DNA from: Nitrospirota bacterium
Lineage (GTDB): Bacteria; Nitrospirota; Nitrospiria; SBBL01; JAADHI01
Assembly (NCBI GenBank): GCA_029261195.1
Contig: JAJDBU010000067.1
Location: forward strand, 1 to 56,949
Reading direction: 5' to 3'
DNA: 56,949 bases
The translations under genes were made by a program, and so were the position numbers. The stretch's first letter is position 1. Each line of letters starts with the position of its first letter. Of this stretch, positions 25,188-53,809 are shown in pieces. Under the pieces are notes generated by a model that searched no databases, was not told where the DNA came from, and saw only the letters and a list, made by a program, of their open reading frames with translations.

Positions 25188-25295
25188 GGATAAGAGGATG
25201 ATGATGGTCTATTTTTTTACGCAAACACCTGCAAGCCTTTACTCAAGGAAACCCACCGAAACATCAAAAAAAACTTCCATCAGAAGACCTAAGTC

Positions 25296-27338: not shown

Positions 27339-27355
27339 GCGACTGAGATCAGCTC

Positions 27356-28434: not shown

Positions 28435-28463
28435 AGAAAGAGCCTACAAGGAGAAGAAATCAT

Positions 28464-29408: not shown

Positions 29409-29416
29409 GCCTCATA

Positions 29417-30007
29417 TTGAAACAGTTAAATCAAATTTTTATGAAGTATTCCCTTCTCTTCTTCTTTTTTTCAACACTCAACTTCCTTGCGGTGGGATGC
29501 ACTGAAAACAAAGAAACTCCAACTGCAAAAACATCTACTAAAAAAGCAACAGGTCCTTTAGAAATTGGTATCCAAATCGGAAACATTGCCCCCGATTTTA
29601 AGCTTCAGAAATTAAATGGAGAGATGTCTGCCCTTTCCGACTATCGTGGAAAGATCGTTCTGGTCAACTTCTGGGCCACCTGGTGCGGCCCATGCAAAGC
29701 AGAAATGCCTTCGATGGAAGCATTATATCGCCAATATCAACGTGAAGATTTTGAAATTCTCGCGGTCTCAATTGATATTGATCCGGATGCCCCGGTTAAA
29801 ACTTTTATTAAAGACTTTGGCTTTACCTTCCCGGTCTTGCTTGATGATCAATTCGAGGTCAATGATCGCTACCAGGTTCGCGTTGTTCCAACCAGCGTCG
29901 TCGTTGATCGAAAAGGGGTCATTACCCATAAGCTCCTGGGTGCAAAGGATTGGAACGATCCGGACTCAAAACTGTTCATCGATCAATTAATTCAAACCGA
30001 TCTATGA
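29417..30007 (+). CDS. ResA/TlpA-like thioredoxin lipoprotein
   Basis: The about 190-residue protein has a lipobox ending FLAVGC, so it should be a lipid-anchored periplasmic thioredoxin. The active site is FWATWCGPCKAEMPS and the cis-proline region is VRVVPTSVVVDRKG. It is a second reductant for c-type cytochrome biogenesis besides CcmG, or a general thiol reductant, fed by CcdA encoded just downstream. The start is uncertain: TTG at 29417 or ATG at 29441, neither with a strong ribosome site; the shorter form gives a cleaner lipoprotein signal. Confidence 0.85.
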   Translation: MKQLNQIFMKYSLLFFFFSTLNFLAVGCTENKETPTAKTSTKKATGPLEIGIQIGNIAPDFKLQKLNGEMSALSDYRGKIVLVNFWATWCGPCKAEMPSMEALYRQYQREDFEILAVSIDIDPDAPVKTFIKDFGFTFPVLLDDQFEVNDRYQVRVVPTSVVVDRKGVITHKLLGAKDWNDPDSKLFIDQLIQTDL

Positions 30008-38545: not shown

Positions 38546-39004
38546 TCCGAAAACATCGAATGAGCCTCCATGCCGACTTGCCTTATACGGGATTTCAAGC
38601 CATAGAAAAGCCGGAGAAAAAGCATTTTAATACGGAATGAAAGCCAGAAATACAGGACTATACTCGTATGAAACCCCATTCAAGAATAATTTGTGACAAT
38701 TCATTGACATGCATAGTGGGGTATGATATAAATCGCGTACTTTTTCTGGGAGGACGCTGGGTGTCATCTGGAAAACATTGTGTAACTATATGAATTTATA
38801 AAGAAAATATTGTTAGAATCAGCAGAGATGTCCATTTGGATTTAGACGCTTTTGGTTGCTCTTTGGGGCCTCGAATTCGGACTATTTTTTCTGCTTGGAA
38901 ATATTGTTTGTTCGATTTTGCGTAACACCACAAGTTTGAACACCCTAAATGCTCATCTCGACAAGGGTAATAGGGATTGCCGGTCTTTAGGTCAAGGAAA
39001 GGGT
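38546..39004. other. Upstream region of the respiratory cluster
   Basis: This interval separates tsaC from the first cytochrome. Apart from the promoter at 38704-38732 I see no gene. An open frame that continues upstream from the cytochrome to a TTG at 38852 encodes a hydrophobic stretch but lacks a ribosome site; I treat it as leader. Confidence 0.4.
38704..38732 (+). promoter_or_regulatory. Near-consensus sigma70 promoter of the respiratory cluster
   Basis: A perfect TTGACA at 38704-38709 and TATAAA at 38727-38732 are separated by exactly 17 bp. It is the best promoter match in the window and stands before a 14.8-kb run of plus-strand electron-transport genes. A predicted start near 38740 leaves an untranslated leader of about 265 bases. 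Confidence 0.75.
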
Positions 39005-40168
39005 TTGAATTTGCACGAAAGAATCGAAACGGCCTTTAGAGTTGCCTTACTGTTTTTAGTTCTTCATTTCGTCGCTTTTTCCGGTTCTCCGGCCCATGCG
39101 GGACCTGACCCTGTAGAGGGCAAGCACCTTTTTAAACATTATTGCGTTGTCTGTCATGGCATTTCCGGAAAAGGAGATGGCATCAATGCGGATAGTCTGG
39201 GCGATGTCCACCCCACCGATCTAACCACCGCCGAGTTCGATAAATACGATGACGAGGAAATCTACGAGGTTATCGAAGGGGGGGGTGCTGCGGTTGACAT
39301 CTCCTATTATATGCCCCCTTGGGGTGAGGTTTTTTCGGAAGATCAAATCAATAGCATTATTACCTATGTCCGGACCCTGTCAGAAGAGCAGGGCGATCCT
39401 TCCATTGCTGCGGTGCGGGTAAGTAGCATTGGAAGGAAGGGGGAGGGAAAGTGCCTTGTTTGTCATGCAAAAAAGAGTAATCTGCTTAGCCCCATTGCGC
39501 CAAATATCGGACATGAAGGCAGTAAGTGGAAGCCGGAAGCGCTAGAGGAGTTTTTGAGGGAACCAGGGAAACTCCGTCCGAATGGGTTTATGCCTTTTAC
39601 CAAGGCGAAGATGCCGAATTTTTTCTTCACGGATCAGGAGATTACGGCACTCGTTGACTACCTGATGACCCTAAAAGACGAAGGGGTGAAGTCTGATGTC
39701 TTGATGGGCTGGGATCCGTCCGATGTTTCGGGGATTGAGGAGGGAGAATTTCTCTTCAACGAAGAGTTTGCCTGCGATGGCTGTCACAAGCGTTCTCCGG
39801 GAGGGGATGGAGGGATTGTCGGTCCGGAACTCTCGAATGCGATGGAACGGATACAACCCGAATGGGTTTATTATTGGCTGAAAAATCCTCAGGCGATGCG
39901 TCCCGATACCCCGATGCCTAACTTTAAGATGTCGGATAGCCAGATTCGGTCTATTCTTGCCTATATGATGACTTTGACTCCAGGTGAGTCAAGAGCAACG
40001 ACTGTGTCAAGTACGATCCCTGATCCCGCGTCCGTTGCCAAAGGGCAGCGGATTGCCGAAGGCAAGAATTGCGGTGGATGTCACCTGATGGATTCATTTA
40101 ACACGCAGCTTGGCATGGCTGATGAGAGTCAAGAGGAAGATCCGGCTTCTGAAACAACAGAAGAGTGA
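39005..40168 (+). CDS. Tetraheme cytochrome c
   Basis: The 387-residue periplasmic protein has a signal peptide ending SGSPAHAG and four CXXCH sites: CVVCH, CLVCH, CDGCH and CGGCH, each in a cytochrome c-like fold with downstream Met ligands (YMPPWGEVFS, MPFTKAKMP, MPNFKMSD). The first two thirds resemble tandem class I cytochromes of the cbb3-FixP type. I choose TTG at 39005 because AGGA lies six bases upstream and the signal peptide follows directly; TTG at 38852 is the longer alternative. It would pass electrons to the oxidase encoded downstream, by inference. Confidence 0.8.
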   Translation: MNLHERIETAFRVALLFLVLHFVAFSGSPAHAGPDPVEGKHLFKHYCVVCHGISGKGDGINADSLGDVHPTDLTTAEFDKYDDEEIYEVIEGGGAAVDISYYMPPWGEVFSEDQINSIITYVRTLSEEQGDPSIAAVRVSSIGRKGEGKCLVCHAKKSNLLSPIAPNIGHEGSKWKPEALEEFLREPGKLRPNGFMPFTKAKMPNFFFTDQEITALVDYLMTLKDEGVKSDVLMGWDPSDVSGIEEGEFLFNEEFACDGCHKRSPGGDGGIVGPELSNAMERIQPEWVYYWLKNPQAMRPDTPMPNFKMSDSQIRSILAYMMTLTPGESRATTVSSTIPDPASVAKGQRIAEGKNCGGCHLMDSFNTQLGMADESQEEDPASETTEE

Positions 40169-40194
40169 TAATAGTGATGAGGAAAGGTGAAAAC

Positions 40195-40722
40195 ATGAAT
40201 CGAAAAGCATCTCTTTGGGCGGTTAGTTTGTTTGTAGTTCTACTCTTGTTGGTTCCGAGTGCGGGGCATGCAGAAAAAGATGACGATGATAAGCCCTTGA
40301 AGCCTGTGCCGAAGGCCTTCGCCGACAAACATATGCCTAAGGGATGGTGGACTGACACCAAGATTATTGCTGAAGGGAAAAAGATCTTTGAAACAAGGGA
40401 GATTACCTATACCTATAAAAGAAAAGAAAAAACGGCTAAGGACGGTTGTGCAACCTGTCATGCGATCAATAAGAAAAAAGACCGCCCCAAAAAACGGGGT
40501 GCCAGAGATTTTCGCGTGGGTAAGCGGATGCATCGCTTCTCCGATAGCTACTGGTTCTGGAGGACTTCCGAGGGGGTGAAGAAGACATCAATGCCGGCAT
40601 GGGGTAAAGAACTGACTGAAGAGGAGATCTGGAAGGTGATCGCGTATGAGCATACCTGGTCACATGGAGATAAACCTGCGGTTCATGAGCATAAAGAGAT
40701 TGAGCGTAGCGTAGAGAAGTAA
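40195..40722 (+). CDS. Monoheme cytochrome c
   Basis: A 175-residue protein with signal peptide MNRKASLWAVSLFVVLLLLV... ending at about residue 26, a Lys/Asp-rich mature N-terminus and a single heme site CATCH. The downstream TSMPAWGKELTEEEIW carries the likely axial Met. An insertion between the CXXCH and the Met (KKKDRPKKRGARDFRVGKR) is unusually basic, suggesting a docking surface for an acidic partner. ATG at 40195 has AAGGTGA just upstream. It begins 26 bp after the tetraheme gene. Confidence 0.85.
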   Translation: MNRKASLWAVSLFVVLLLLVPSAGHAEKDDDDKPLKPVPKAFADKHMPKGWWTDTKIIAEGKKIFETREITYTYKRKEKTAKDGCATCHAINKKKDRPKKRGARDFRVGKRMHRFSDSYWFWRTSEGVKKTSMPAWGKELTEEEIWKVIAYEHTWSHGDKPAVHEHKEIERSVEK

Positions 40723-40747
40723 TAGCTTACGTCAGTGTAATTTTCAC

Positions 40748-40769
40748 GGCACCATTTGCGAATGGTGCC
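40748..40769 (+). promoter_or_regulatory. Intercistronic hairpin in the respiratory cluster
   Basis: GGCACCATT at 40748-40756 and AATGGTGCC at 40761-40769 form a perfect 9-bp stem with a TGCG loop between the monoheme cytochrome and the first MrpD-like gene. There is no U run, so it is more likely an RNA-stability or processing element that separates the cytochrome and membrane-subunit parts of the transcript than a terminator. Confidence 0.5.
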
Positions 40770-40824
40770 AAAATCCTAAAATGTCTATGGTGAGATAGGC
40801 GAGGCTGAGGTAATAAGAGCGAAT

Positions 40825-42330
40825 ATGGAAATGGAATCCATAAAACCGTTTTTGGCTGTGTTGATCCCGTTTATCGGCGGGGCAGCCATTATTGCAACTC
40901 GGAAAAACAAAAATATTCGTGAAGGCTGTTCGCTTGGAGCGGGTGTCCTGATGTTTTTTGTTGTTCTCAGTATGCTCTCGCCCGTTCTTGATGGTAAAAC
41001 CCTTCACTACACGCTCTTCGATTTCTGGCCGACTGTGCCCATTGGCTTCCGAGTGGATGGCTTGGGACTTCTCTTTGCCCTCGTTGCAGCTTTTACCTGG
41101 ATTTTAACAACCATTTATTCCATTGGTTACATGCGTGGCCTCAAGGAACACTCTCAAACCCGTTTTTATTTTTGTTTTGCGGTCACACTGTCTGCAACGA
41201 TGGGGGCGGCTTTTTCAAATAACTGGTTTACACTCTTCCTTTTTTACGAGTTGATCACTTTTTTTACTTATCCTCTGGTCGCGCACCATGAAACAAAAGA
41301 GGCCTGGGCAGGAGGAAACAAGTATCTCTTGTATCTTTTGGCAACCTCGAAACTTTTTATGGGCGTCGCCATTCTCTTGACCTATTACTACGCCGGATCA
41401 CTTGATTTTACGGCCAATGGCATTCTTCCTGCCGATGTGGAATCAGCGACCTTAACAATTATCTTTTTTCTCTACTTGTTCGGGGTTGCTAAAGCGGCAC
41501 TCATGCCTTTTTCAGCCTGGTTACCTGCCTCTATGGTGGCGCCCACCCCAGTGAGTGCGCTCCTTCATGCAGTTGCCGTTGTGAATACCGGGGCCTTTTG
41601 TATCTTGCGGGTTGTGCTTAATACCTTCGGTGTGGATTTGTTGCAGAGCCTGGATATCGGGTCGATTGCCGCCTATCTTGCCAGCTTTACGATTATTATG
41701 GCCTCGGTTTATGCAATGTCGAGGGATAACCTTAAGGAACGGATTGCGTATTCTACGGTCAGTCAACTTTCCTACATGATATTGGGCGGAGTGCTCTTGA
41801 GCGCCAGTGGGCTGACGGGAGGTATTTTGCATATCGCAAATCATGCAATAGCCAAAATCACGCTTTTTTTCTGTGCCGGTTCGATCTATGTGGCGACGAA
41901 AAAAACCCATGTCTCTCAATTGGATGGTATTGGCCGAAAAATGCCCTGGACGATGGGTGCCTTTGCGATTGCCACTCTAAGCATGGTCGGAGTACCTCCT
42001 TCTGCAGGTTTCTTAAGTAAGTGGTTTTTGTCACTAGGGGCAATTGAAGCGAACCAGGTACCTATTGTGTTTGTGATGCTGGTCAGTGGACTTTTAAATG
42101 CAATTTATTTTCTGCCTATTGTGCATCGGGCCTTTTTTAAAGCTCCAAATGAAGGCCTGTCTCTTGCGCTTGCAGGAGATAAAGATGGGGTTGCAGTGCA
42201 GGGGGTAGAGTCGTCTTTTAAGGAGCCGATGTATTGTGTCATTCCTTTGTGCATCACGGCTGGGGCGTCCATTCTACTAGGCATATTCCCGAATCTTCTT
42301 CTTGATCTGATCAAACAGGTGACAGGATGA
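40825..42330 (+). CDS. MrpD/NuoM-like ion-translocating subunit (first copy)
   Basis: The 501-residue protein has about 14 membrane helices of the Mrp/complex I antiporter family. The ion-path residues are in place: Glu142 (LFLFYELITFF), Lys223 in helix 7 (GVAKAALMPFSAWLPASM), His249 (SALLHAVAVVNTGAF) and Lys344 (HAIAKITLFF). It is therefore competent as a proton- or sodium-translocating channel. No other complex I genes (NuoA-K) are present; instead it precedes a second MrpD-like gene and the bd-like oxidase, so the likely partner is that oxidase. Confidence 0.88.
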   Translation: MEMESIKPFLAVLIPFIGGAAIIATRKNKNIREGCSLGAGVLMFFVVLSMLSPVLDGKTLHYTLFDFWPTVPIGFRVDGLGLLFALVAAFTWILTTIYSIGYMRGLKEHSQTRFYFCFAVTLSATMGAAFSNNWFTLFLFYELITFFTYPLVAHHETKEAWAGGNKYLLYLLATSKLFMGVAILLTYYYAGSLDFTANGILPADVESATLTIIFFLYLFGVAKAALMPFSAWLPASMVAPTPVSALLHAVAVVNTGAFCILRVVLNTFGVDLLQSLDIGSIAAYLASFTIIMASVYAMSRDNLKERIAYSTVSQLSYMILGGVLLSASGLTGGILHIANHAIAKITLFFCAGSIYVATKKTHVSQLDGIGRKMPWTMGAFAIATLSMVGVPPSAGFLSKWFLSLGAIEANQVPIVFVMLVSGLLNAIYFLPIVHRAFFKAPNEGLSLALAGDKDGVAVQGVESSFKEPMYCVIPLCITAGASILLGIFPNLLLDLIKQVTG

Positions 42331-42584
42331 ATCTAGGTGATTTTTTTAGAAAATACGGGGAAGATGACATTTTTTGCAAGAAGGCAAAAAAAGGGTTTTA
42401 TGTCTTTCTTGGTCTTGTGGTGATCAGTGATTTTTTTGTTCACCATGACCATGTGAATTTTTTATGGGACAAAATCCCCGGATGGTGGTCTGCATACGGA
42501 TTTATTTCAACCGTTGTTATGATTGTCCTTTCGAAGGCAATCGGACATGCCTGGCTGATGAAATCAGAGGATTATTATGATTGA
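42327..42584 (+). CDS. Small membrane protein between the MrpD-like subunits, 85 aa
   Basis: The 85-residue product has about two hydrophobic helices (YVFLGLVVISDFFV and YGFISTVVMIVLSKAIGHAW) and charged ends. I recognise no family. It overlaps the preceding stop by 4 bp (ATGA) and overlaps the next start by 8 bp, so it is firmly locked in the operon and is probably a structural subunit between the two antiporter-like proteins. Confidence 0.7.
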   Translation: MNLGDFFRKYGEDDIFCKKAKKGFYVFLGLVVISDFFVHHDHVNFLWDKIPGWWSAYGFISTVVMIVLSKAIGHAWLMKSEDYYD

Positions 42585-44112
42585 GTGGGTTTCACCCTCC
42601 CTGTTCTTCTATCTCGGCGCTGCGATTCTTCCTTTTATAAAAGGAAAAGGCCGCTCAGGACTTCTGCTTTCCATTCCAGTGCTTGCCTTGCTCACGATTC
42701 TTTCCGCTTCTCAGGGCATCCATGGTGTCGTGTCTTTTGCTGGCCAGGAACTGATCTTCGGTCGTGTAGATAAACTGAGCCTTGGATTCGGCGCTGTTTT
42801 TATGGTGAGTGCCTTTGCGAGTCTTGTTTTTGCTTTACATGTGAAGGATTGTCGCGAGCACATTTCGGCCTTGCTCTATGTCGGCAGTGCGGTGGGAGCG
42901 GTTTTTGCGGGAGATCTCTTTTCTTTCTTTCTGTTCTGGGAGATTGCTTCCTTCTCTTCTGTTTTTTTGATTTGGTTGAGAGGGGAAGAGGCTTCAAATG
43001 CTGCCGGGATGCGTTATATTCTGGTGCATATTACCGGAGGTCTGCTTCTCTTTGGCGGCATTGTTATTCATGTCGGTAGCGGTGGAGGCATCGCTTTTGA
43101 CGCAATGCCTCAAATGGGTCTGGGCCCGACACTCATGTTGATGGGCTTTCTGATCAATGCGGCGGTTCCACCGGTTCATGCCTGGTTGGCGGATGCCTAT
43201 CCTGAGGCCACACTGACCGGCGTGATTTTCTTGAGTGTCTTTACGACCAAGACAGCTATTTATGCTTTGATACGCGGGTTTCCTGGAACACCGATCCTCA
43301 TTGTTTTAGGTGCGGTGATGGCCGTTTATGGTGTGATGTATGCGGTCAATGAAAATAATTGCCAGCGAGTCTGGTGCTATCATCTGATCAGTCAAAATGG
43401 CTATATGATCACCGGGATCGGTATCGGGACGGCACTGGGAATCAACGGCGCAGTCTCTCTCGCCTTTACAAATATTGTTTACAAGGCATTGCTCATGATG
43501 GGTATCAGCTCAGTCACTCACATGACAGGTGGGAGAAAGCAATCCGAGCTGGGTGGTCTTTATAAAAGCATGCCTTGGACTTTTCTGCTCTTTGTGGTCG
43601 GGGGCTTTGCGATTGCTGGGGTGCCACCGCTTGTAGGCTTTGTGAGTAAGTCGATTGTGGTTTCTGCAGCGGCTGAAATACATCAGGGTTGGGTCATATT
43701 AATGCTCGTTTTTGGTGCCTGTGGAACTTGGCTTCATCCCCTAAAGCTCATCTATATGGTCTTTCTTGGAGAAGACAGGGCTAAGGACAGGAAGATCAAG
43801 GTGACGGATCCACCGGCCAATATGTTATGGGGAATGAGAATTCTTGCAACGCTTTGCATCGTTTTCGGACTTTTCCCTGGGTTACTCTACGGCATGTTCC
43901 CGGAGCCCATGGAGTACCATCCTTACACTCTGGGTCATCTGGTTGAAGCCTTTCAATACATGGGCTTTACCCTCTTGGTCTTTATGCTGTTCCTGAAAAA
44001 GCTGACGCCGGAAAATTATATCAGTCTGGACACCGATTATATCTATCGAAAAGGAAGTCTTGTTTTTATGTGGTTGGTCAAGCGTCTCGCATTTTTGAGG
44101 CATGTGACATGA
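42577..44112 (+). CDS. MrpD/NuoM-like ion-translocating subunit (second copy)
   Basis: The 511-residue protein has about 14 helices. Glu122 (FLFWEIASFSS) and Lys225 (TTKTAIYAL) are conserved, but the helix-7 lysine position reads LINAAVPPVHAWLADAYPEA, with Asn194 where the first copy has Lys223; I recall the same Asn in one MrpD/MbhH-related clade. The C-terminus SLDTDYIYRKG resembles MrpA/D tails. The two copies differ enough to be separate modules and not a recent duplication. It precedes the oxidase by 66 bp. Confidence 0.87.
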   Translation: MIEWVSPSLFFYLGAAILPFIKGKGRSGLLLSIPVLALLTILSASQGIHGVVSFAGQELIFGRVDKLSLGFGAVFMVSAFASLVFALHVKDCREHISALLYVGSAVGAVFAGDLFSFFLFWEIASFSSVFLIWLRGEEASNAAGMRYILVHITGGLLLFGGIVIHVGSGGGIAFDAMPQMGLGPTLMLMGFLINAAVPPVHAWLADAYPEATLTGVIFLSVFTTKTAIYALIRGFPGTPILIVLGAVMAVYGVMYAVNENNCQRVWCYHLISQNGYMITGIGIGTALGINGAVSLAFTNIVYKALLMMGISSVTHMTGGRKQSELGGLYKSMPWTFLLFVVGGFAIAGVPPLVGFVSKSIVVSAAAEIHQGWVILMLVFGACGTWLHPLKLIYMVFLGEDRAKDRKIKVTDPPANMLWGMRILATLCIVFGLFPGLLYGMFPEPMEYHPYTLGHLVEAFQYMGFTLLVFMLFLKKLTPENYISLDTDYIYRKGSLVFMWLVKRLAFLRHVT

Positions 44113-44178
44113 AATATTCAGTTGATGGAAATAGGATGAAGGGACGTTCTGCCTTTGGAATTCAAAGGGGAGGGTATC

Positions 44179-46650
44179 ATGAGTTTAATTAAATCGATCA
44201 AAAAACAACCCCTGATGTGGGCCGTTTTTCTCCTTATGGCGCTATTCGCGCTTCCTTCACCCTCTGTTTTTGCGGAGACCGGTTCTTCGGTGAGCTACCG
44301 GGATATCGGTGGCATCGGCAGCCGTAATCTGATCTGGATCTTATCTCAGATTCATATCTTGTTTGGCGCTTTTGTCTTAGGTGTGCCCATCTTTGTCATC
44401 ATTGTAGAGGTCATCGGTATTACGACAGGGGATAAGCGCTATGATCGCCTTGCCAAAGAATTTACAGACCTGATTGTTGCCTGTTTTGCGACGACCGCGA
44501 CTCTCGGGATACTTTTTCTTTTTGCTCTGCTTGTTTTTTACCCTGAGTTAATGAGTGTGATGGCGGGTATCTTTAAGCCGGCCTACTATGTTTATCTCGC
44601 CCTTTTCTTGGGAGAAACGGCCTCGATTTACTTTTACTGGTCTCGTTGGGAAAAGTGGCAGAACCGTAAAGGCCTCCATCTTTTTTGGGGAATGGCGCTT
44701 AATATCTTCGGATTTGTCATTATGTGTCTTCCCAGTGGTTTCCTTTCCTTTCAGGCAAGTCCCGTTGTTTTGAACCCGGATCTGGGACCATGGGAAAGAG
44801 CCTGGACTGCTATAAATAACCCGACGTGGTGGCCGGTGAATATTCACCGCATTGTCGGAAATATCGTGCTTGGAGGCTTTGTCTGCGGCGCTTACGCAGG
44901 GGTTGCGTATCTAGGTGCGAAAACTCAAGAAGAGCGTGAGCATTACGATTGGATGGGTTATACCGGAAATTTTATTGGTGTTTTCGGTTTGCTCCCGATG
45001 CCCTTTGCCGGTTACTGGCTCATGCGGGAAGTATACGAATATAACCAACAGATGGGCATTACCCTCATGGGAGGGATTCTCTCCTGGCTTTTTATTCTCC
45101 AGGCGGTTCTTATTGGAGTGCTCTTTGTCGGTTCAAACTACTACTTCTGGCAGGGAATTGCCTATCGAACACACTCTGCACCCAAGTATAAAACGCCAAT
45201 TCTCATTATGCTGGTGGTATTGGTTGGTTCGTTCTCTGTGTGGCTTACACCTCACTCTCTGGTTGCAAGTGTTTCCGAGGCCAGGGCGATGGGAGGTTCT
45301 CACCATCCTCTTCTGGGGGTCTTCGGGGTGATGTCGGCCAAGCTGACCGTTGTGAACCTGATGATTATTACGACCTTTATCTGTTTTATCCTCTATTGGC
45401 GGGCAGATAAAGTCATCACGGTGAAGTGGGGGAAAGCGGCCAATATATTTACATTTGTCTTGATCACTGCGGCAGTCATCGTCATTATCTGGCTTGGCGT
45501 TTATGGTTATTTTGTGCCATCTGTCTATCGGGTGAATGTGCTTTCCGTGGCTCAGGTGCTCGCTGTTATTTTTGTTCTGGCTACGATTACTCCTTTGACT
45601 GCCCTCTCTCTCAAATCGGCTAAGCTGACCCATGAGATGAAATGGGGGATCATGCCAAAGCGATCCCAATATGCTTTGGTCATCAATGCGGTTTTTGTTG
45701 TTTTAACAATGTCCCTGATGGGATATGCCCGTTCTGCCTCACGTGTCCATTGGCATATCTATGGTGTGCTGGAAGATACTTCTTCCTATGGCTATACGCC
45801 AACCTTAGGGGTCGCTTCTTTTCTTTTTGTGGTCAATACAGTTATCTTCTTTGTTTTGGTGGGTATCGTTTTTTGGACATCACACACGATACGACATAAT
45901 CGTTTTTCTACACGCTATTTCTTTCTGCCTTCGGTCTTCATGTACCTTGTTGATCGCTTTAGTGAACACCGAAAAGAGGTCGCAAAAGGAGAAACCGGAC
46001 CCCGTTTTGTTATTTTAAAGGTTGCTGCCGTCGTCGGTGTGTTTTTATTTGCCTACTCCTATGTGGGCTATCAGGTTCCGCAGAAGGTGGGTCTGCCTCC
46101 TGAAAAAAAGGAGTTGGATCTGACGAAAATTAAGACTTCGGATGATATGGTGCAGATCGGTCAGGAAATTTTTTACAGCAAGGGACAGTGTGCCCTGTGT
46201 CACTCGATTGGTGCGGGTCATGGTCGTTGTCCCAACCTCGCCGGTGTGGGAGCTCGGCTGACGCGAGAGTTCATCTATGAAACGCTAACGGAGCCCGAGG
46301 CCTATATCAAATTGGACTTCCATACCGCAATGCCGGTTGAGTATTCTGCCCAGATGCCTGTGATCAGTAAACCGCCTATCGGTCTTTCAGAGCAGGAGTT
46401 GCTTACCGTGATTGCATTCGTTCAAAGCAATGGAGGGAAAGTGACCGTAAGACCGGAAGAGCTGTCACAGGTTCCCGGCAATTCAGAATCGACTCCAGAG
46501 GCACTTGATGTGATGCCGCAGCTTGAACCTGCTGAATTGATTGAGGACGAGTCTGACGAAACCCCGGAAGAACGCGCAATGATCCAAGGGGAATCATTCG
46601 AGGGAGACAGGCATATTAGGATGGCTACAAAAAGAGTGAGTGACAGATAA
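44179..46650 (+). CDS. Cytochrome bd-like oxidase fused to cytochrome c domain
   Basis: The 823-residue membrane protein has an N-terminal CydA-like part: His59 (SQIHILFGAFVLG), Glu146 (FLGETASIYFYW) and His223 (WWPVNIHRIVGN) are where bd oxidases place heme ligands. After about 14-16 helices comes a periplasmic class I cytochrome c domain with CALCH (671-675) and FHTAMPVEYSAQMP. The canonical Q-loop motif of quinol oxidases is not evident, so cytochrome c as electron donor is plausible. Such bd-like proteins are known from Nitrospira. ATG at 44179 has GGGGAGGG upstream; the in-frame codon at 44155 is less likely. Confidence 0.85.
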   Translation: MSLIKSIKKQPLMWAVFLLMALFALPSPSVFAETGSSVSYRDIGGIGSRNLIWILSQIHILFGAFVLGVPIFVIIVEVIGITTGDKRYDRLAKEFTDLIVACFATTATLGILFLFALLVFYPELMSVMAGIFKPAYYVYLALFLGETASIYFYWSRWEKWQNRKGLHLFWGMALNIFGFVIMCLPSGFLSFQASPVVLNPDLGPWERAWTAINNPTWWPVNIHRIVGNIVLGGFVCGAYAGVAYLGAKTQEEREHYDWMGYTGNFIGVFGLLPMPFAGYWLMREVYEYNQQMGITLMGGILSWLFILQAVLIGVLFVGSNYYFWQGIAYRTHSAPKYKTPILIMLVVLVGSFSVWLTPHSLVASVSEARAMGGSHHPLLGVFGVMSAKLTVVNLMIITTFICFILYWRADKVITVKWGKAANIFTFVLITAAVIVIIWLGVYGYFVPSVYRVNVLSVAQVLAVIFVLATITPLTALSLKSAKLTHEMKWGIMPKRSQYALVINAVFVVLTMSLMGYARSASRVHWHIYGVLEDTSSYGYTPTLGVASFLFVVNTVIFFVLVGIVFWTSHTIRHNRFSTRYFFLPSVFMYLVDRFSEHRKEVAKGETGPRFVILKVAAVVGVFLFAYSYVGYQVPQKVGLPPEKKELDLTKIKTSDDMVQIGQEIFYSKGQCALCHSIGAGHGRCPNLAGVGARLTREFIYETLTEPEAYIKLDFHTAMPVEYSAQMPVISKPPIGLSEQELLTVIAFVQSNGGKVTVRPEELSQVPGNSESTPEALDVMPQLEPAELIEDESDETPEERAMIQGESFEGDRHIRMATKRVSDR

Positions 46651-47469
46651 TTGTTGATTAAACGAAAAGGGAAATTGTTCGTTCTTCCATTCTTGGTGTT
46701 GTTCTTGCTCGTTTCCGTAGGTTGTGAGGACAAGTATATCGCCAAAGGACATAAGGTCTTTAGTCGTTACTGCTCACCCTGTCATGGAGAGGCCGGGGAT
46801 GGATTAGGGTACAATGCGAAGAATCTGGACCCTCAGCCGCGAGACCTGACGGATGCAGACGAAGATTATATGGCCAAACTGTCGAATAATGAAATTTACG
46901 AAGTGCTTCAACTGGGCGGTTACGGTGTCGATCTCTCCGGTGGCATGCCGGTGTGGGGAAAGGTTTTTTCAGAAGAAGAGCTCTGGTCCTTGGTCGCCTT
47001 TGTCCGCACGCTTCATCCGAATGAAGGTAATGAGATTGCTTTCACAAAACCGGATTCAGAGGAATCGGTGTTTAATGCGAAGCGTGTTCGATATCCCAAA
47101 GTACGAGAAAAGAAGTTCTATGATTTATTGGAAGCCTTGGCACCGGATGAAGAATCTTTTGATGAACAGGTTGCTGCGGGGGAAGAGATCTTCGCCGAGG
47201 TCGGTTGTAATTCCTGCCACAAGGTGAATGGTGAGGGAGGGACATTGGGGCCTGATTTGTCCCAAGCCGGATTTATGCTTCAGACGCAGTTCATTTTTCG
47301 TTGGATTCTGAATCCGCAATCATTTGTGGCAAAGACGAGGATGCCCAACCTGGACTTAAATGAGGAGGATGCCCTTGCCATTTCACTATACGTCAGTACG
47401 CTAAAAGAAGCTTCTTCTGGAAATTCGGTTTCTGAAGAAGACGATGACGCAGAAGAGGGGGGAGTTTAA
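46651..47469 (+). CDS. Diheme cytochrome c lipoprotein
   Basis: This 272-residue protein has a signal sequence ending LLVSVGC, a lipobox, so it should be lipid-anchored in the periplasm. Two heme sites, CSPCH and CNSCH, each have downstream Met candidates (GGMPVWGKVFSE and TRMPNLDLNEED). The first half closely parallels the N-terminus of the tetraheme protein (SNNEIYEVLQLGG versus DDEEIYEVIEGGG), pointing to a shared origin. It starts at TTG directly after the oxidase stop and ends acidic. Likely direct electron donor to the oxidase, by inference. Confidence 0.85.
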   Translation: MLIKRKGKLFVLPFLVLFLLVSVGCEDKYIAKGHKVFSRYCSPCHGEAGDGLGYNAKNLDPQPRDLTDADEDYMAKLSNNEIYEVLQLGGYGVDLSGGMPVWGKVFSEEELWSLVAFVRTLHPNEGNEIAFTKPDSEESVFNAKRVRYPKVREKKFYDLLEALAPDEESFDEQVAAGEEIFAEVGCNSCHKVNGEGGTLGPDLSQAGFMLQTQFIFRWILNPQSFVAKTRMPNLDLNEEDALAISLYVSTLKEASSGNSVSEEDDDAEEGGV

Positions 47470-47471
47470 AA

Positions 47472-48218
47472 ATGAAAATGCCTCTCGTTGCTAAGGCCTC
47501 TGCATGTGTATTTGGTTTCTTCCTTTTTTTGAAATTAGGCTTACCCCTTTTTACGAGTCCACTTCCTTACAGTGTGCTCGCGATGTACATGATTTTGGTC
47601 CTGATCTCGACTCTGCTCTATGTTTCGATTTTTGAAGACGACTATAGCAATTTTTATCTTCCGATTGTGAAGTTTCTTCGTGGGGACGAAGGGGACAATG
47701 CTGTTCGGAAGATGAGCCGGATTGCAGTTTTTGTCATGATTCCTCTGTTTATGGGCTTTCGGACCTACAAGAGCGTCCAGCCGAACTTTGAACCCCCTTT
47801 TCCGCAACGTGTGATTCATCCTGCACCACCTGGCTCGGCCGCCGGTTTTGTCAATCCTTACGGGGGTGATGAAGCGAATCATGAAAAATATGTTCAGGAA
47901 GGACGTAAAGTTTATTATGAAAACTGCGTCTTTTGTCATGGGGATAAGTTGGATGGTAAAGGTTTTTTTGCAAATGCCTTAAACGTCAAGCCGGCTAATT
48001 TTGCAGATCCGACAACCATCTCAATGCTTCAGGAATCTTTTGTCTTCTGGCGGGTTAAGACGGGTGGAATTGGGCTTCCTGAAGAAGCTACGCCATGGGA
48101 TTCTGCAATGCCGAGATGGGAATTAATCTTGTCGGAAGAGGAACGATGGAAGGCCGTTATGTTTTTGTATGACTATACCGGATGGAAACCAAGGACTTGG
48201 GAATTAGATGCTGAATAG
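47472..48218 (+). CDS. Membrane-anchored monoheme cytochrome c
   Basis: The 248-residue protein has two or three N-terminal helices (about 8-55 and 83-97), a proline-rich linker and a periplasmic cytochrome c domain with CVFCH and a downstream AMPRWELILSEEERW. The mixed plan resembles membrane subunits with attached cytochromes in the oxidase clusters of this type, but I cannot name a family. GGGGGGAG precedes the ATG; only 2 bp separate it from the previous gene, and its end overlaps the next by 11 bp. Confidence 0.8.
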   Translation: MKMPLVAKASACVFGFFLFLKLGLPLFTSPLPYSVLAMYMILVLISTLLYVSIFEDDYSNFYLPIVKFLRGDEGDNAVRKMSRIAVFVMIPLFMGFRTYKSVQPNFEPPFPQRVIHPAPPGSAAGFVNPYGGDEANHEKYVQEGRKVYYENCVFCHGDKLDGKGFFANALNVKPANFADPTTISMLQESFVFWRVKTGGIGLPEEATPWDSAMPRWELILSEEERWKAVMFLYDYTGWKPRTWELDAE

Positions 48219-49797
48219 TCTATTAAATAAAAGTTGGTTAAAGGCCCTTCCTCTGCTCTTTTTAGCGGTGGTGCTTTTATTTGGATGGACTCCGTTGGTT
48301 GCAGCTGATGAAGAGCATGACGATGCAGCTCCAACGGCTGAAACGGCGGAAGAAAATGCTCTCCCCACGGATGATCTTGCTGCCGGAAAAATGATTTATG
48401 AAAAACTGTGTATCTCCTGTCATGGCATAGAAGGGGACGGTGATGGACCTGCAGCGGTTCGCTTTCAACCTAAACCGAGAAGTTTTAAGAAAGCAAAATA
48501 CAAGTATCGAACGACTCCAAAGGGCAAGCTTCCAACCGACGAAGATCTATTCAGGGCGATTACCCTGGGTCTTCCCGGAACGGGGATGCCGGATTGGGCG
48601 GATGTCCTGTCCGAAAAAAAGATTCGACAAGTGATTAAATATATTAAAAGCTTTTCCGATGAATGGGAAAAACAAGAGTCCTCTCCTCATGTTGTCACAG
48701 TAGGCACGGTCGTTCCTACAAGTCCCGAAAGTGTAGAAAGAGGGAAAAAACAATTTACTGCACTCGGTTGTCAACTTTGTCATGGAACGGAAGGTCGGGG
48801 AGACGGACCCACGGCATCGGCGCTGAAAAATCATCGGGGCGATCCCGTCTATCCAAGAAATCTCAATAAAAATTGGCTCTTCAGGGGAGGGGGTAAGGCG
48901 GAAGACATTTATGTTCGTGTTAATACCGGTCTTAGCGGGACTCCCATGCCCGAGTTTTCGGGGGCATTGGATAATGAAAAAAGTTGGGATTTGGCAAACT
49001 ATGTTCGATCCCTTTCTCCGGAAAAGACGCCGGAACGAGGATCTTTAATCAAGGCGCGTTCCATTGAGGAGACCATCCCGGTTGACCCGGATGACCCGAT
49101 CTGGCAGGAGGGAGAGCCCACTTGGTTTCCGATGATGGGACAGATTTCTTTTGAAAAGAGGCTCTTTACCCCCTCTGTGACAGATATTACGGTTAAATCC
49201 GTTTTTAATGAAAAAGAAATCGGCTTCCTCCTGATATGGGATGACCGAAGTAAGAGCAAAACAAGTAAACCTGGCGCGAAGAAAATAAGCTTCACCGATC
49301 AAGTTGCAATTCAATTCCCTGAAAAGCTGCAGCCGGGTGGCGTGAAAAAACCTTATTTTATCATGGGAGATGAAAAATTAGGCGTTAACTTATGGAACTG
49401 GACTTCAGAGGATAATCGCTTCTTTGAGACGAATGCCTACGGTGTTTGGAACAATAGTGAAGTAGAGCAAAGTGGTTCTGATATCAGCGGTAAGGGCTAT
49501 TACAAAAACGGCCAATATCGCCTAGTCATCAAAAGGTCTTTTCAAACCTCAGATAGTGAAAAAGATATTCAATTTGAAAAGGGCATCTTCTACCCAGTCG
49601 CTTTTTTTGCTATGGATGGGACGAATGGTGAAAAGGGTTCACAAAGGTCAATTACTCCTTGGTATTTTGTTTTCATGGAACCGGAAGAAGATAAGAGTGT
49701 TTACTATTATCCGCCCATTGTAATCGCGCTAGTGTTTGGACTGGAATTTATTTTAGTGAAAATTTTGAAAAAGAATCATAAAAAAGAAAACGTATAG
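48208..49797 (+). CDS. Diheme cytochrome c with EBDH/NXR-gamma-like heme b domain
   Basis: The 529-residue protein has a signal peptide (to about 32), two cytochrome c domains (CISCH and CQLCH), then an ethylbenzene-dehydrogenase-related domain (about 285-490) with VDPDDPIWQEGEPTWFPMM, VKSVFNEKEIGFLLIWDD and PYFIMGDEKLGVNLWNWTS, and a final membrane helix with a basic tail. That domain is the heme b subunit type found in DMSO-reductase-family enzymes such as nitrite oxidoreductase gamma subunits. No catalytic alpha or beta subunit is nearby, so here it likely acts as an electron conduit. Confidence 0.82.
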   Translation: MLNSLLNKSWLKALPLLFLAVVLLFGWTPLVAADEEHDDAAPTAETAEENALPTDDLAAGKMIYEKLCISCHGIEGDGDGPAAVRFQPKPRSFKKAKYKYRTTPKGKLPTDEDLFRAITLGLPGTGMPDWADVLSEKKIRQVIKYIKSFSDEWEKQESSPHVVTVGTVVPTSPESVERGKKQFTALGCQLCHGTEGRGDGPTASALKNHRGDPVYPRNLNKNWLFRGGGKAEDIYVRVNTGLSGTPMPEFSGALDNEKSWDLANYVRSLSPEKTPERGSLIKARSIEETIPVDPDDPIWQEGEPTWFPMMGQISFEKRLFTPSVTDITVKSVFNEKEIGFLLIWDDRSKSKTSKPGAKKISFTDQVAIQFPEKLQPGGVKKPYFIMGDEKLGVNLWNWTSEDNRFFETNAYGVWNNSEVEQSGSDISGKGYYKNGQYRLVIKRSFQTSDSEKDIQFEKGIFYPVAFFAMDGTNGEKGSQRSITPWYFVFMEPEEDKSVYYYPPIVIALVFGLEFILVKILKKNHKKENV

Positions 49798-49826
49798 TAG
49801 TTTAAAAGCTAAGAGATTATTGTTAA

Positions 49827-50366
49827 TTGGATTTATTTGTTGAGATTGGAGAGTTATATAAGAGGACAAAATACCTATTGAAATATTTGCTTGTTTTAAT
49901 TTCAGTGCTGGGATTCTCCGGAGTTGCAGTTGCGGAACACGAAGCCAATCATCGATATCTGGTTTCAGGCTATGTTCGGGATGCGGCAGGTAAACCTCTT
50001 GGAAATACGAAGGTAGAGCTTGAGCACAAAGGTGGCGAGGGGAAAAAGGTCACTACTGATAATGACGGGTATTATGAGGCCCGCTTTCACCTTCATAACC
50101 AAAATCTTGGAGATAGAATTGTTGTTGTCGCCTCGGGGGTGACAAAAAAAATAAAGGTTCAATTCGATACGGAAGATGGAATCAGCTTTCGTGGGAGTGC
50201 TGTTAACTTTGGGGCGGAGTCAAATGACAATTCACCCATTTGGACCTTTTTAACAATTGCGTCCTTGGTTGTTTTGTCAGGTACGATTTACTTTGGTTTG
50301 ATAAAAAGAAAGAAAAAATCGAATGCTCCGGAGAAACTTAAGAAGCTCAAAAAGAAACGAAAATAA
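49827..50366 (+). CDS. Carboxypeptidase-regulatory-like domain membrane protein
   Basis: A 179-residue protein with a signal peptide or anchor (about 17-35), one carboxypeptidase-regulatory-like Ig fold (YLVSGYVRDAAGKPLGNTKV, then TTDNDGYYEARFHLH), and a second membrane helix near 138-155 followed by a very basic cytoplasmic tail. The start is uncertain: TTG at 49827 is the first codon, and TTG at 49878 directly before KYLLVLISVLG is an alternative. It lies inside the electron-transport cluster and carries no heme site, so it may be an assembly or structural subunit. Confidence 0.7.
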   Translation: MDLFVEIGELYKRTKYLLKYLLVLISVLGFSGVAVAEHEANHRYLVSGYVRDAAGKPLGNTKVELEHKGGEGKKVTTDNDGYYEARFHLHNQNLGDRIVVVASGVTKKIKVQFDTEDGISFRGSAVNFGAESNDNSPIWTFLTIASLVVLSGTIYFGLIKRKKKSNAPEKLKKLKKKRK

Positions 50367-50405
50367 GGATATAAGTTTTTATGAACTGTAGGGAAGGGAG
50401 GGTAT

Positions 50406-50966
50406 ATGGCAGGCGCTGAACAAAAAGGGGAAAGTCCTGAGGACGTCAGTCGCAGGCGATTTTTTACCCTGATGAGCCTAGGTGTTGGCTGGGGTGGCGT
50501 GGTCGCGACACTCGGCGGTATCGGCGCAGGTGCGGCGCGCTATATGTTCCCTTCCGTGCTTTATGAGCCTCCCACTGTTTTCAAGATCGGACTTCCTAGT
50601 GGATATGGTATGGGGGTTGATACTAAATTAAAAAAAGAACGTCAGGTTTGGGTGGTTAGGAATGAGAGAGGCATCTATGTCTTAGTCGCGATTTGTCGAC
50701 ATCTTGGCTGCACGCCGAATTGGTTCTCAGACCAAAAACTCTTCCGTTGTCCCTGTCATGGCAGTATATATGACCCCCATGGTAACGTGGTAGGTGGACC
50801 TGCACCGCGTACATTGTGGCGTTCTGCGATTTCCCTGGATCCTGTTGACGGTCAAATTGTTGTGGATTTTAATCTGAGACAAGATCCGGACCCTGTTGGT
50901 ACGCCGGAAGGTCTCATGGTTGAAGAAGCGAGCCGGGAAGTCGAACCCTATTTTTTAAAGGTTTAA
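50406..50966 (+). CDS. Rieske iron-sulfur protein
   Basis: The 186-residue subunit accepts electrons from quinol in the bc complex. An N-terminal Tat-type SRRRFF and anchor helix (about 24-44) precede the cluster domain with CRHLGC and CPCHGS, two Cys and two His for the 2Fe-2S centre plus the disulfide cysteines, and GPAPRTL. GGAGGG stands four bases before the ATG. It begins the bc-complex block, followed at 22 bp by cytochrome b. Confidence 0.95.
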   Translation: MAGAEQKGESPEDVSRRRFFTLMSLGVGWGGVVATLGGIGAGAARYMFPSVLYEPPTVFKIGLPSGYGMGVDTKLKKERQVWVVRNERGIYVLVAICRHLGCTPNWFSDQKLFRCPCHGSIYDPHGNVVGGPAPRTLWRSAISLDPVDGQIVVDFNLRQDPDPVGTPEGLMVEEASREVEPYFLKV

Positions 50967-50988
50967 GCGTTAAGGAGATAGCTTAAGG

Positions 50989-51759
50989 ATGTGGGAATTA
51001 TTTCAACGAATTCGATCGGTCGTCAATAAAACACAGGCATTCAAATCGATCTTCAGGCATGGTTTTCCGAATAATGATGGCAATCGTGCCCTTGTAATGT
51101 TTAGCAATATTATTCTCCATCTTCATCCGGTTCGGGTTCGGCGTGGTGCCCTAAAAATAAAATTCACTTGGTGCCTTGGCGGACTCACGTTTTTCTTCTT
51201 CATCCTGCTTGCCATTACCGGTGTGTTCCTAATGTTTTATTATGTCCCGGATACGAACCGGGCCTACGGGAATATCAAGGATTTGGGAACGGTGATTTTC
51301 TTCGGAGATCTTTTCAGAAGTCTCCATCGCTGGTCGGCGCATTCCATGGTTCTTTTTGTATGGCTTCATATGACTCGGGTCTTTTTTACTGGATCCTATA
51401 AACCCCCACGCGAATTTAACTGGGTTGTCGGAGTCATCCTCTTGTCCACAACCTTGGTACTAAGCTGGACGGGCTACTTACTTCCTTGGGATCAGTTGGC
51501 GCTTTGGGCCGTTACAGTCGGAAGTAAAATGGCGGAGGCTTCTCCTCTTATAGGGAAAGCAGGTCCCTTCGGCGCCGAACTCGGGATGAATGCAAATAAT
51601 GACATCACCTTTGCATTACTGGGTGGTACTGTGGTCGGGCAGAGTGCTCTACTCCGCTTTTATGTGCTTCACTGCCTGGCATTGCCGCTGGTGACCGCCC
51701 TCTTTATTGCCATCCATTTCTGGCGAATCCGTAAAGACGGTTTTTCTGGTCCCTTATAA
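50989..51759 (+). CDS. Cytochrome b6-type subunit (N-terminal half of split cytochrome b)
   Basis: The 256-residue protein has four helices with the two bis-His heme b pairs: [18 protein letters not shown] in helix B and [20 protein letters not shown] in helix D. Cys62 in [11 protein letters not shown] aligns with the cysteine that holds the extra heme c (ci/cn) in b6f complexes, so a b6f-like complex with a third heme is likely. It is followed by the separate C-terminal half, the b6/subunit IV split. AAGGAG precedes the ATG. Confidence 0.93.
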
Positions 51760-51790
51760 ACGAAACGACTGATTGAATTAGAGGAAACAC

Positions 51791-52657
51791 ATGCCGCAAA
51801 AAAGTGTCAATCCTGGATCAATGGAAATAAAAATCGATAAAAAATCAGACGATCTTCTCGCGCGAATCAAGAAAACGGCCCTTAAGAAAATAGGGCCCGA
51901 AGACACAGTACTGGTCTGGCCAAATCTGGTTTATCTTGAATTGATTGCCATGATGTTTGCTTTGGCGATTCTCTTGTTTCTCTGTCTCTATTCACCAGCG
52001 CCCTTAGAGGAGTTGGCGAGTGCCGATACAACCCCAAATCCGACGAAAGCCCCATGGTATTTTCTGGGTTTACAGGAGTTGCTTGTTTTCTTTGATCCCT
52101 GGCTTGCTGGAGTGGTTCTACCCTCATTAATCATGGTCGGGCTGATCTTAATTCCCTATATCGATCCAAACCCGAAAGGAAAGGGATATTATACTTTTTC
52201 AGAAAGGAAGTTTTCAGTTATAGGTTTCAGCTTTGGACTGGCACTCTGGTACATATTGATCGTTGTCGGTGTCTGGTTTAGAGGACTCGACTGGTCATGG
52301 TACTGGCCTTGGGATGACCCTCACATGCATCAACCGGCTGGTGCCGTCAAACTAGTCGACCTACAAGTGATTCTGCAAAGTACATTGGGACTCAGTGAAA
52401 CTCCTGTTGCCACCTTGGGGAGGTATGTTGTTTCCATGGCAAACCTTATTACTTGGGGGATTTTTGTGGGTTATTACGCCATCGGGTTTGCAATACCCTT
52501 CCTCATATTTCGGAACTTTTACAATAAGTTGGGATTTGTACGCTATAACCTGACGATGTTTTTTTTCTTATCAATGCTGGGCGTCCCGATGAAGATATTT
52601 CTTCGCTTGCTTGCCGATATTAAATATGTACTGGTGACACCCTGGTTCAATATATGA
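51791..52657 (+). CDS. Cytochrome b C-terminal half (subunit IV-like), extended
   Basis: The 288-residue protein carries the Qo-site loop as APWYFLGLQELL, a variant of PEWY with Pro-Trp. The first three helices resemble subunit IV; extra helices follow at about 217-240 and 255-275, so it is longer than plant subunit IV (160 aa). A cytoplasmic N-terminal stretch of about 45 residues is lysine-rich. No heme c is attached. It follows cytochrome b6 by 31 bp and precedes the small 43-residue membrane protein. Confidence 0.92.
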   Translation: MPQKSVNPGSMEIKIDKKSDDLLARIKKTALKKIGPEDTVLVWPNLVYLELIAMMFALAILLFLCLYSPAPLEELASADTTPNPTKAPWYFLGLQELLVFFDPWLAGVVLPSLIMVGLILIPYIDPNPKGKGYYTFSERKFSVIGFSFGLALWYILIVVGVWFRGLDWSWYWPWDDPHMHQPAGAVKLVDLQVILQSTLGLSETPVATLGRYVVSMANLITWGIFVGYYAIGFAIPFLIFRNFYNKLGFVRYNLTMFFFLSMLGVPMKIFLRLLADIKYVLVTPWFNI

Positions 52658-52687
52658 CGTCTATTTTATTAAATACGAGGTTGAACA

Positions 52688-52819
52688 ATGGATGATTTAT
52701 GGGCGTATCCTTACCGGCTGGGTATTGGGATTTTTATGGTTGTCGGGACATTCCTGCTCACAGTCCTTTTTATCGGATTTACGGCTTGGCTTGAACGAGA
52801 CTTTAAAAAAGATAAATAG
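52688..52819 (+). CDS. 43-aa single-helix membrane protein of the bc complex
   Basis: A small gene not obvious in longer gene scans: ATG at 52688, with GAGG seven bases upstream, encodes MDDLWAYPYRLGIGIF..., one membrane helix (about 11-34, VVGTFLLTVLFIGFTAWLE at its centre) and a short basic end before TAG. It sits between the subunit IV-like gene and the tetraheme cytochrome in the same direction. By analogy with PetG/L/M/N, a small stabilising subunit is my best interpretation. Confidence 0.7.
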   Translation: MDDLWAYPYRLGIGIFMVVGTFLLTVLFIGFTAWLERDFKKDK

Positions 52820-52888
52820 CAAAGCGGTAGAACTTGTTAGTTTTCTCCTTGCTTTTCAGAGAAATATGATGGGGGTATTGATCTTTTC

Positions 52889-53809
52889 ATGGTAAAGCAT
52901 ATTGTATTCGCGGTCTCAAGCATGGCTGTTGTCTTTCAGTTGGGTCTATTTGTTTACAACTTTGAAACCGCAGAGTGGAGAGGCTACCAGTCCACTTATT
53001 ATAAAAAGTTGGCTGAGGTGACGAACACACCTGAAATTGCGAAGACTTCTCTTAAAGTTCAGCAGGTTTGGGACAAAGACCTGGATCGGCCGGACAGATG
53101 CACGACCTGTCATGGCGGGGTGGCCAATCCGGCTTTTGAGGGCGAGCCACAACCCTACACGACCCATCCCCACTTTAAAGATCAGGCCTTCATTTCAAAA
53201 CATCCTTTTGAAAAATTTGGCTGTACGATTTGTCATGAGGGAAGCCCTCACGCAGTCACGGTTAAAGCGACACATGGTGTTGTGAAACATCTGGATCGAC
53301 AGTTGTTAACAGGTCCCTATGTCCAGGCCTCCTGCACGAAGTGCCATTACGAACTTTTGAACCGTGACGTTTATTGGCCCGAAGCAGAGGTGTTGATGAA
53401 AGGGAAACAGCTCGCTTATGAACTCGGCTGTGGAGCCTGCCATGCGATTCGTCAATTTGGAACATCACCGACGGTTGCACCGGAACTTTCCAATGCAGGC
53501 AGCAAGACGGAACTATCCTTTAGCTTAGTTCACGATTTTTCAAATCTGGAATCAGAAGATCATCTGATGCGTGTTTGGGAATGGGAGCATTTTAAACAAC
53601 CGCGAAAAATCGTCCCAGGACATCCGGATGCGCCCAATCCAAAAGATAGAACCTCTCCGACAATTATGCCGAACTGGGACTTGACCGACGATGAAGCGAC
53701 TGCTCTGACTGTCTTTGTCATGTCCCTGAGAGATCCAGCCGTTGAGAATATCCCTCCCTCTTATTTTCCAAAGGTCAAGGAACATGAAGGATTTTTGCAG
53801 TATAGATAG
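52889..53809 (+). CDS. Membrane-anchored tetraheme cytochrome c
   Basis: The 306-residue protein begins with an uncleaved helix (about 4-24), then four heme sites: CTTCH, CTICH, CTKCH and CGACH. The first three lie close together with extra His residues (YTTHPHF, THGVVKH), as in multiheme cytochromes with bis-His ligation; the last is in a class I-like domain with TIMPNWDLTDDE. It replaces the usual cytochrome c1/f as electron acceptor for the Rieske protein, by position. Ribosome site is weak. Gene order Rieske-b6-IV-small-cytochrome fits a complete bc-type complex. Confidence 0.9.
   Translation: MVKHIVFAVSSMAVVFQLGLFVYNFETAEWRGYQSTYYKKLAEVTNTPEIAKTSLKVQQVWDKDLDRPDRCTTCHGGVANPAFEGEPQPYTTHPHFKDQAFISKHPFEKFGCTICHEGSPHAVTVKATHGVVKHLDRQLLTGPYVQASCTKCHYELLNRDVYWPEAEVLMKGKQLAYELGCGACHAIRQFGTSPTVAPELSNAGSKTELSFSLVHDFSNLESEDHLMRVWEWEHFKQPRKIVPGHPDAPNPKDRTSPTIMPNWDLTDDEATALTVFVMSLRDPAVENIPPSYFPKVKEHEGFLQYR

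Follow-up and report, generated by a model that had tools for sequence, protein, structure and literature searches.

A bd-like oxidase gene adjoined by two antiporter-type subunits in a Nitrospirota genome: distribution, build and possible ion coupling

Can an oxygen reductase of the bd kind work as part of an ion pump? To our knowledge, oxidases of this kind are regarded as non-pumping enzymes, and the question is raised by a locus on contig JAJDBU010000067.1 of a Nitrospirota genome of 3.04 Mb. The complete contig, 56,949 bases, was analysed and is called the window hereafter. Within a co-directional gene cluster spanning positions 38852-53809, the window carries a core of four genes, encoding an antiporter-type subunit (MrpD1), a small membrane protein, a second antiporter-type subunit (MrpD2) and a CydA-like (bd-like) oxidase subunit. 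Judged from comparative sequence analysis, the core likely encodes a coupled oxidase-antiporter unit. Our tentative reading of its function, to which we give just short of an even chance, is forward pumping by a cytochrome c-fed O2 reductase of the bd superfamily, to which an arm of two antiporter subunits would be physically coupled.

The initial annotation of the window had presented such a pump as a new energy-coupling design, which it is not. The design itself, ion-motive coupling included, is already known as TO_2: the accessible text of PMC9040806 describes TO_2 of Candidatus (Ca.) Manganitrophaceae as a bd-like protein accompanied by a pair of MrpD-like subunits, and proposes that it generates or dissipates motive force, even by electron bifurcation.

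The antiporter pair beside the oxidase

Gene coordinates and Pfam matches bear out the initial description of a CydA-like gene directly preceded by two antiporter-type genes and one for a small membrane protein; the antiporter subunits match Proton_antipo_M with E 3e-48 and 2e-39. All four genes read as intact open reading frames in one direction. MrpD1 overlaps the 85-amino acid (aa) gene by 4 bases, the latter overlaps MrpD2 by 8 bases, and MrpD2 is followed by CydA after 42-66 bases, depending on which CydA start is used. The lack of further complex I genes nearby also holds, as profile searches gave no match to NuoA-D or NuoF-K anywhere in the window; no NuoJ-/NuoK-like (MrpA/MrpC-type) partner was matched there either, MrpB, E, F and G lying outside the profile search.

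The arrangement was then followed through 246 genomes of the class (MrpD1 threshold E <= 1e-140, CydA type E <= 1e-180), in which f1 denotes the window's family, f5 the Ca. Manganitrophus-type family of the same order, and f6 and f10 two families outside that order. MrpD1 is present in 26 of these genomes and the CydA type in 213. Based on coordinates and annotated stretches, MrpD1 adjoins the oxidase at 18 of 50 loci, in 16 genomes of four families: 10 loci in f1 (8/8 genomes), 4 in f5 (4/6 genomes), and 2 loci in 2 genomes for f10 and f6 each. The CydA of genome G017, broken by stops, falls under the threshold, and a nineteenth locus, in G015, is cut by the contig end. Locus L083 also carries the oxidase with antiporters. 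The antiporter genes stand before CydA in f1, f5 and G241, and after it in f10, L083 and G076. Since all eight f1 genomes keep the arrangement, it is more than chance adjacency, and a chance neighbourhood was ruled out on this ground.

The antiporters are not exclusive to the oxidase. Many relatives have the same oxidase cluster without them, and among the best 80 of 580 MrpD1 relatives, 56 lie in nuo clusters, 2 beside the oxidase and 22 elsewhere (the last group including L138, a short contig that carries NuoM and NuoN). The pair's frequency in complex I operons was not stated in the initial annotation; the 56 nuo loci rule out exclusivity. What remains of the suggested dedicated pairing is its presence in 8/8 genomes of the family and in three other families. 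Obligate co-occurrence is found within the f1 branch, but elsewhere the oxidase is mostly without antiporters and the antiporters are mostly with nuo. The opposite pattern, in which MrpD-like genes would go with nuo or mrp operons and never with this oxidase, was not found, as both settings occur. A tie to manganese oxidation only is countered by f6 genome G076, which has both the arrangement and an NxrA-like frame of 1149 aa and so weakens an exclusive link; the NxrA-like match does not reach the curated cut-off of its family, and neither does that in G039. The G076 locus in question is L175 (G076:C79), and misbinning of this contig is possible.

The window's genome holds further copies of these parts. 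A second MrpD1-MrpD2-CydA set (L055, G000:C55:176000-195999) is 78-86% identical, with no cytochrome genes beside it and no match to the small protein; its neighbours include CBS-domain proteins and a DabA/DabB-like pair, both named by eye. Contig C3 bears a green complex I operon with the MrpD pair (L058), and C71 a complex I operon with five antiporter subunits (L059), like the published Complex_I_3. In Ca. Manganitrophus GAC4 (L072/L076), frameshifts or stops, which may be sequencing errors, interrupt CydA and MrpD2. A scan of viral_contigs for CydA relatives gave none.

The charged ion-path residues pointed out in the initial annotation are indeed kept. Residues were mapped onto MrpD of Bacillus pseudofirmus (7qru) with positions counted by hand, their roles being taken from the available part of PMC9568556; rows L072 and L076 represent one genome. 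Oxidase-linked MrpD1 retains E142, K223, H340, K344 and K399 in 20/20 rows, and oxidase-linked MrpD2 retains E122, K225, K303 and K358 in 16/16. At two other positions the oxidase-linked rows differ from nuo rows. Position 254 of MrpD1, the Lys of transmembrane helix (TM) 8, is N in 16, D in 1 and K in 3 of 20 oxidase-linked rows (15, 1 and 3 of 19 distinct rows) whereas 57/60 nuo rows have K. Position 299 of MrpD2, the TM11 His, is N in 14 and H in 2 of 16 (13 and 2 of 15 distinct rows) whereas 52/56 nuo rows have H. The change at 254 is not universal, since the f10 and L083 rows retain Lys, and Asn is also found there in L058 and L075, the nuo rows closest to the f1/f5 branch. The place of the MrpD2 TM7 Lys is Asn in 15/16 oxidase-linked, 56/56 nuo and 15/18 other rows, so that the loss of this Lys is old.

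The shortened MrpD2 and the exchange of partners

MrpD2 of complex I ends in a long C-terminal stretch with a final membrane helix, and the oxidase-linked copies stop before it. From sequence and known structure, we read this stretch as the lateral helix arm that NuoL-type subunits carry. Intact oxidase-linked MrpD2 proteins measure 502-536 aa in 14/14 copies, the window's included, against 582-623 aa in 51 intact nuo copies and 571-606 aa in 16 others (a broken nuo match was left out, as were two copies, both broken, from a single genome). For the rows of a tree built on the core only, intact oxidase-linked copies end 19-49 residues past position 485 (26 in the window) and the others 99-140. 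In E. coli, C-terminal truncation of NuoL leaves 37-42% of the enzyme and 7-14% of quinone reductase activity, according to the accessible text of PMC3274701. The lack of a complex I-type arm in oxidase-linked MrpD2 argues for a purpose-adapted unit; spare complex I genes were ruled out, the arm being missing from every intact copy.

With 13 short and 27 long rows on the core-only tree, leaving aside one cut row, 3 changes are required to account for the short form, every one forced by starred branches. The third, in G007, is probably a chimera: its MrpD2 (L068, G007:C24) looks chimeric, with a core near Complex_I_3 and a tail like the oxidase-linked copies of its own family. Because of this likeness of tails, we counted two independent losses and one conversion, and as read from these trees the arm is lost independently at least twice.

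The trees also speak of exchanged partners. Oxidase-linked MrpD2 as one clade was rejected by the approximately unbiased (AU) test with p 5.9e-43 (39 rows), 8.1e-65 without L068 and three odd rows (35 rows), 0.0008 with f6 (32 rows) and 8.5e-12 on the core only (41 rows). For MrpD1 the AU p was 0.017 (43 rows) and became 0.157 once f6 was included (39 rows); its f1 + f5 branch has a support of 97/93. The nearest antiporter relatives include the C3 complex I of the window's own genome, and the MrpD2 core of G007 groups with Complex_I_3. In four genomes (G001, G002, G003 and G006) another protein, MrpD-B (about 600 aa), serves as second subunit; by eye it ends at the point corresponding to the short MrpD2 and, at E <= 1e-60, it occurs in 4/41 genomes and only at the oxidase. 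Despite these exchanges, two antiporter subunits are kept at every oxidase-linked locus (10/10 loci in f1). One clade was not rejected for CydA (p 0.504, 42 rows), and 16 antiporter-linked CydA rows are set apart from the others by a branch (78/98, not starred). Consequently, the antiporters may have been recruited once, MrpD2 then being replaced, or twice.

Together, these patterns suggest that the antiporter subunits were reshaped to work with this oxidase. A broader scenario is possible, although we would stop short of calling it probable: a bd-family reductase would have turned into an ion pump when it took over a complex I-type antiporter pair, whose arm was lost at least twice in separate lineages and whose subunits were exchanged while the partnership was kept. 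This would be a second, heme-copper-independent architecture of pumping oxidase, found in a nitrite-oxidiser-like genome and in the manganese-oxidiser order.

What the oxidase and its partners may do

The CydA-like protein matches Cyt_bd_oxida_I (E 4e-17) in its N-terminal half only, over profile positions 8-242 of 418. Of the three positions named in the initial annotation, His59 and His223 are invariant in 35/35 CydA rows, together with E94, Y139, H167, H255, H375, H376, M385, K388 and H526, but Glu146 is lost in 5/18 antiporter-linked rows; it is kept in the other 13 and in 17/17 antiporter-less rows, and the second antiporter lineage has T or S there throughout (5/5 rows). H59 aligns with H21 and E146 with E108 of 5doq, as counted by hand. 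H223 presumably corresponds to the second heme-ligand His of bd oxidases, and we take the Glu at the E146/E108 place to belong to their proton route. The fused cytochrome c is found in 18/18 antiporter-linked CydA against 8/17 others, and G63 and Y137 in 18/18 against 1/17 and 0/17. Neither a heme-copper oxidase nor CydB was found in any of the 8 f1 genomes (90-99% complete), a search that left other oxidase kinds aside, and CydB (PF02322) is likewise not found in the window's genome, which has four CydA-like genes, including the C55 copy and further ones on C75 and C77. Without heme-copper oxidase and CydB, a pumping accessory would be useful to f1.

What the sequences show is the order of the genes, a conserved antiporter pair that retains its ion-path charges, the lost arm and, for f1, the lack of heme-copper oxidase and CydB. 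From these we infer that the four proteins form one complex in which the CydA-like subunit reduces O2, transport is coupled and the forward direction is normal. Electrons from periplasmic cytochromes c would enter via the fused cytochrome c domain and pass to hemes in the CydA-like core, where O2 would be reduced with cytoplasmic protons. Outward transport of H+ (or Na+) by way of MrpD1 and MrpD2 would be powered by the energy released, and the small protein may help to keep these two subunits together.

Several points weigh against forward pumping. Loss of the TM8 Lys in MrpD1 and of the TM11 His in MrpD2 could mean weakened, not tuned, transport. As the linkers known to join redox and antiporter modules (NuoH, J and K type) are missing, no coupling path is visible, and the AlphaFold model of CydA, made from two sequences, has a mean predicted local distance difference test (pLDDT) score of 35. 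The correlated CydA features may only mirror common descent, antiporter-linked CydA possibly being one clade. The same oxidase type occurs without antiporters, as the counts of CydA (213/246) and MrpD1 (26/246) indicate, and the absence of heme-copper oxidase does not predict antiporters: 3/5 f10 genomes without antiporters also lack it, and 5/6 f5 genomes have it. The literature search surfaced no biochemical evidence for any member.

Among the alternatives, a reverse or bifurcating mode, in which inward ion flow would push some electrons uphill to quinone via cytochrome b and Rieske proteins while the rest reduce O2, is unlikely but fares best. Yu et al. 2022 proposed it for TO_2 in what is accessible of PMC9040806, which also reads a five-antiporter complex I, such as that on C71, as fit for reverse transport. 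The Rieske, cytochrome b6 and PetD-like genes of the window's cluster would suit such a mode, but Rieske and cytochrome b6 genes also accompany the oxidase in antiporter-less relatives, the gene order differs in f10 and f6, where the b6 part has another place within the cluster, and the C55 copy has no adjoining cytochrome genes at all.

We regard it as quite improbable that the antiporters merely share their expression with the oxidase and, mechanically uncoupled from it, act as a common cation/H+ exchanger or in pH homeostasis. The 22 non-nuo clusters among the best 80 of 580 MrpD1 relatives would fit this view, as does the Na+/H+ antiport of MrpD-type proteins, which the available part of PMC9568556 places within a seven-subunit Mrp complex. 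However, the cluster has no NuoJ/NuoK-like partner, the copies found elsewhere retain the arm that all oxidase-linked ones have lost, and the pair remains with one oxidase through subunit exchange. Finally, that the CydA-like protein is not an O2 reductase but an electron-transfer membrane protein (e.g., from cytochrome c to quinone) served by the antiporters would agree with its half-length bd match, with the Glu146 losses and with the complex III-like role suggested for a related bd-like protein without quinol-site residues in the accessible text of the Nitrospina genome paper (PMC3578206), but is very improbable given the invariant His59 and His223 at bd heme positions and the lack of heme-copper oxidase or CydB in f1, even though the CydA-like proteins of C75 and C77 could serve as oxidase.

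A coupled unit with forward pumping remains our preferred, if tentative, reading, and the published coupling hypothesis is strengthened by a pair that is built differently from the complex I antiporters related to it and that remains with one oxidase through partner exchange. If the pumping were true, a respiratory chain without heme-copper oxidases could conserve more energy when reducing oxygen, and it would follow that antiporter modules can be detached from complex I. Nature offers oxidases that have or lack the antiporters and antiporters that have or lack the arm, a contrast by which the way antiporter subunits are driven becomes directly testable.

Neighbouring genes and comparison with known systems

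The genes of the cluster are collected in Table 1. Upstream of it, a group of cytochrome c maturation-type genes was recognised by eye in the list of open reading frames at 23493-30007. Also by eye, a 737-aa frame at 15610-17823 is apparently secreted or structural, and transposase-like frames lie at the contig start (51-1804). An Rfam scan of the window found none, and promoter and terminator patterns gave no signal (15 against 19.4 expected; 24 against 18.6 expected).

Table 1. Genes of the co-directional cluster, in window coordinates
Feature	Position	Strand	Remarks
Periplasmic cytochrome c, four CxxCH motifs	38852..40168	+	TTG start uncertain; same-place ortholog in TO_2-type loci of f1 and f5
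Mono-heme cytochrome c	40165..40722	+	
MrpD1, antiporter-type subunit, 501 aa	40825..42330	+	PF00361; NCBIfam NF006236 above cut-off
Small membrane protein, 85 aa	42327..42584	+	No Pfam/NCBIfam family; complex I operons also have it between their two MrpD genes
MrpD2, antiporter-type subunit, 511 aa, without lateral-helix arm and last helix	42577..44112	+	NCBIfam NF009310 above cut-off
CydA-like (bd-like) oxidase subunit, 823-831 aa, fused C-terminal cytochrome c	44155 or 44179..46650	+	CxxCH at residue 671 counting from 44179 codon
Di-heme cytochrome c	46651..47469	+	
Membrane-anchored mono-heme cytochrome c	47472..48218	+	
Di-heme cytochrome c with ethylbenzene-dehydrogenase type heme b domain (EB_dh; periplasmic cytochrome b)	48208..49797	+	
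Membrane-anchored Ig-like (carboxypeptidase regulatory-like) protein, kept across cluster	49827..50366	+	Pfam matches under curated cut-offs
Rieske iron-sulfur protein	50406..50966	+	
Cytochrome b6-type protein	50989..51759	+	
PetD-like membrane protein	51791..52657	+	Pfam match weak
Multiheme cytochrome c, four CxxCH	52889..53809	+	

The window's system shares parts with several known ones. With canonical cytochrome bd (CydAB) it has the N-terminal helices and a His ligand position in common, but it lacks CydB, shows no profile match to the C-terminal half, thereby falling short of the full CydA profile with quinol-binding loop, and has a fused cytochrome c. With the Mrp cation/H+ antiporters it shares the MrpD fold family and conserved Lys/Glu residues, but the cluster has no MrpA/MrpC-like partner and is linked to an oxidase. 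The trio of MrpD1, small protein and MrpD2 occurs in identical order in green complex I, where it replaces NuoL, whereas the window has none of the NuoA-K genes and its MrpD2 is without lateral helix and last helix. The OR-N branch of the cytochrome bd superfamily (CydAA', Murali et al. 2021, as cited in the accessible text of PMC10839748 and PMC12342949) also comprises CydA-like oxidases of Nitrospirota and Nitrospinota that are putatively cytochrome c-oxidising; the CydA of the window, likened to this branch by description and not by tree placement, differs in its fused cytochrome c and attached antiporters.

TO_2 of PMC9040806 agrees in having a bd-like protein, two MrpD-like subunits and a periplasmic and a membrane cytochrome b in one cluster, within the same bacterial order. 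The window has both kinds of cytochrome b, in the EB_dh heme b domain and the cytochrome b6-type protein, and orthology is supported by GAC4 locus L076 (CP114561) and by G011, G013 and G014, which share the window's cluster. Among the papers searched, which did not extend to subscription journals, no other was recognised as describing a bd-like oxidase/MrpD pairing. PMC9040806 restricts TO_2 to Ca. Manganitrophaceae in its accessible part, while f6, f10 and L083 carry the arrangement too, and that part mentions neither the missing arm nor the exchange of subunits. On the sequence evidence given above, what is new here is the wider distribution, the armless MrpD2, the exchange of partners, the residue shifts and an f1 family without heme-copper oxidase and CydB.

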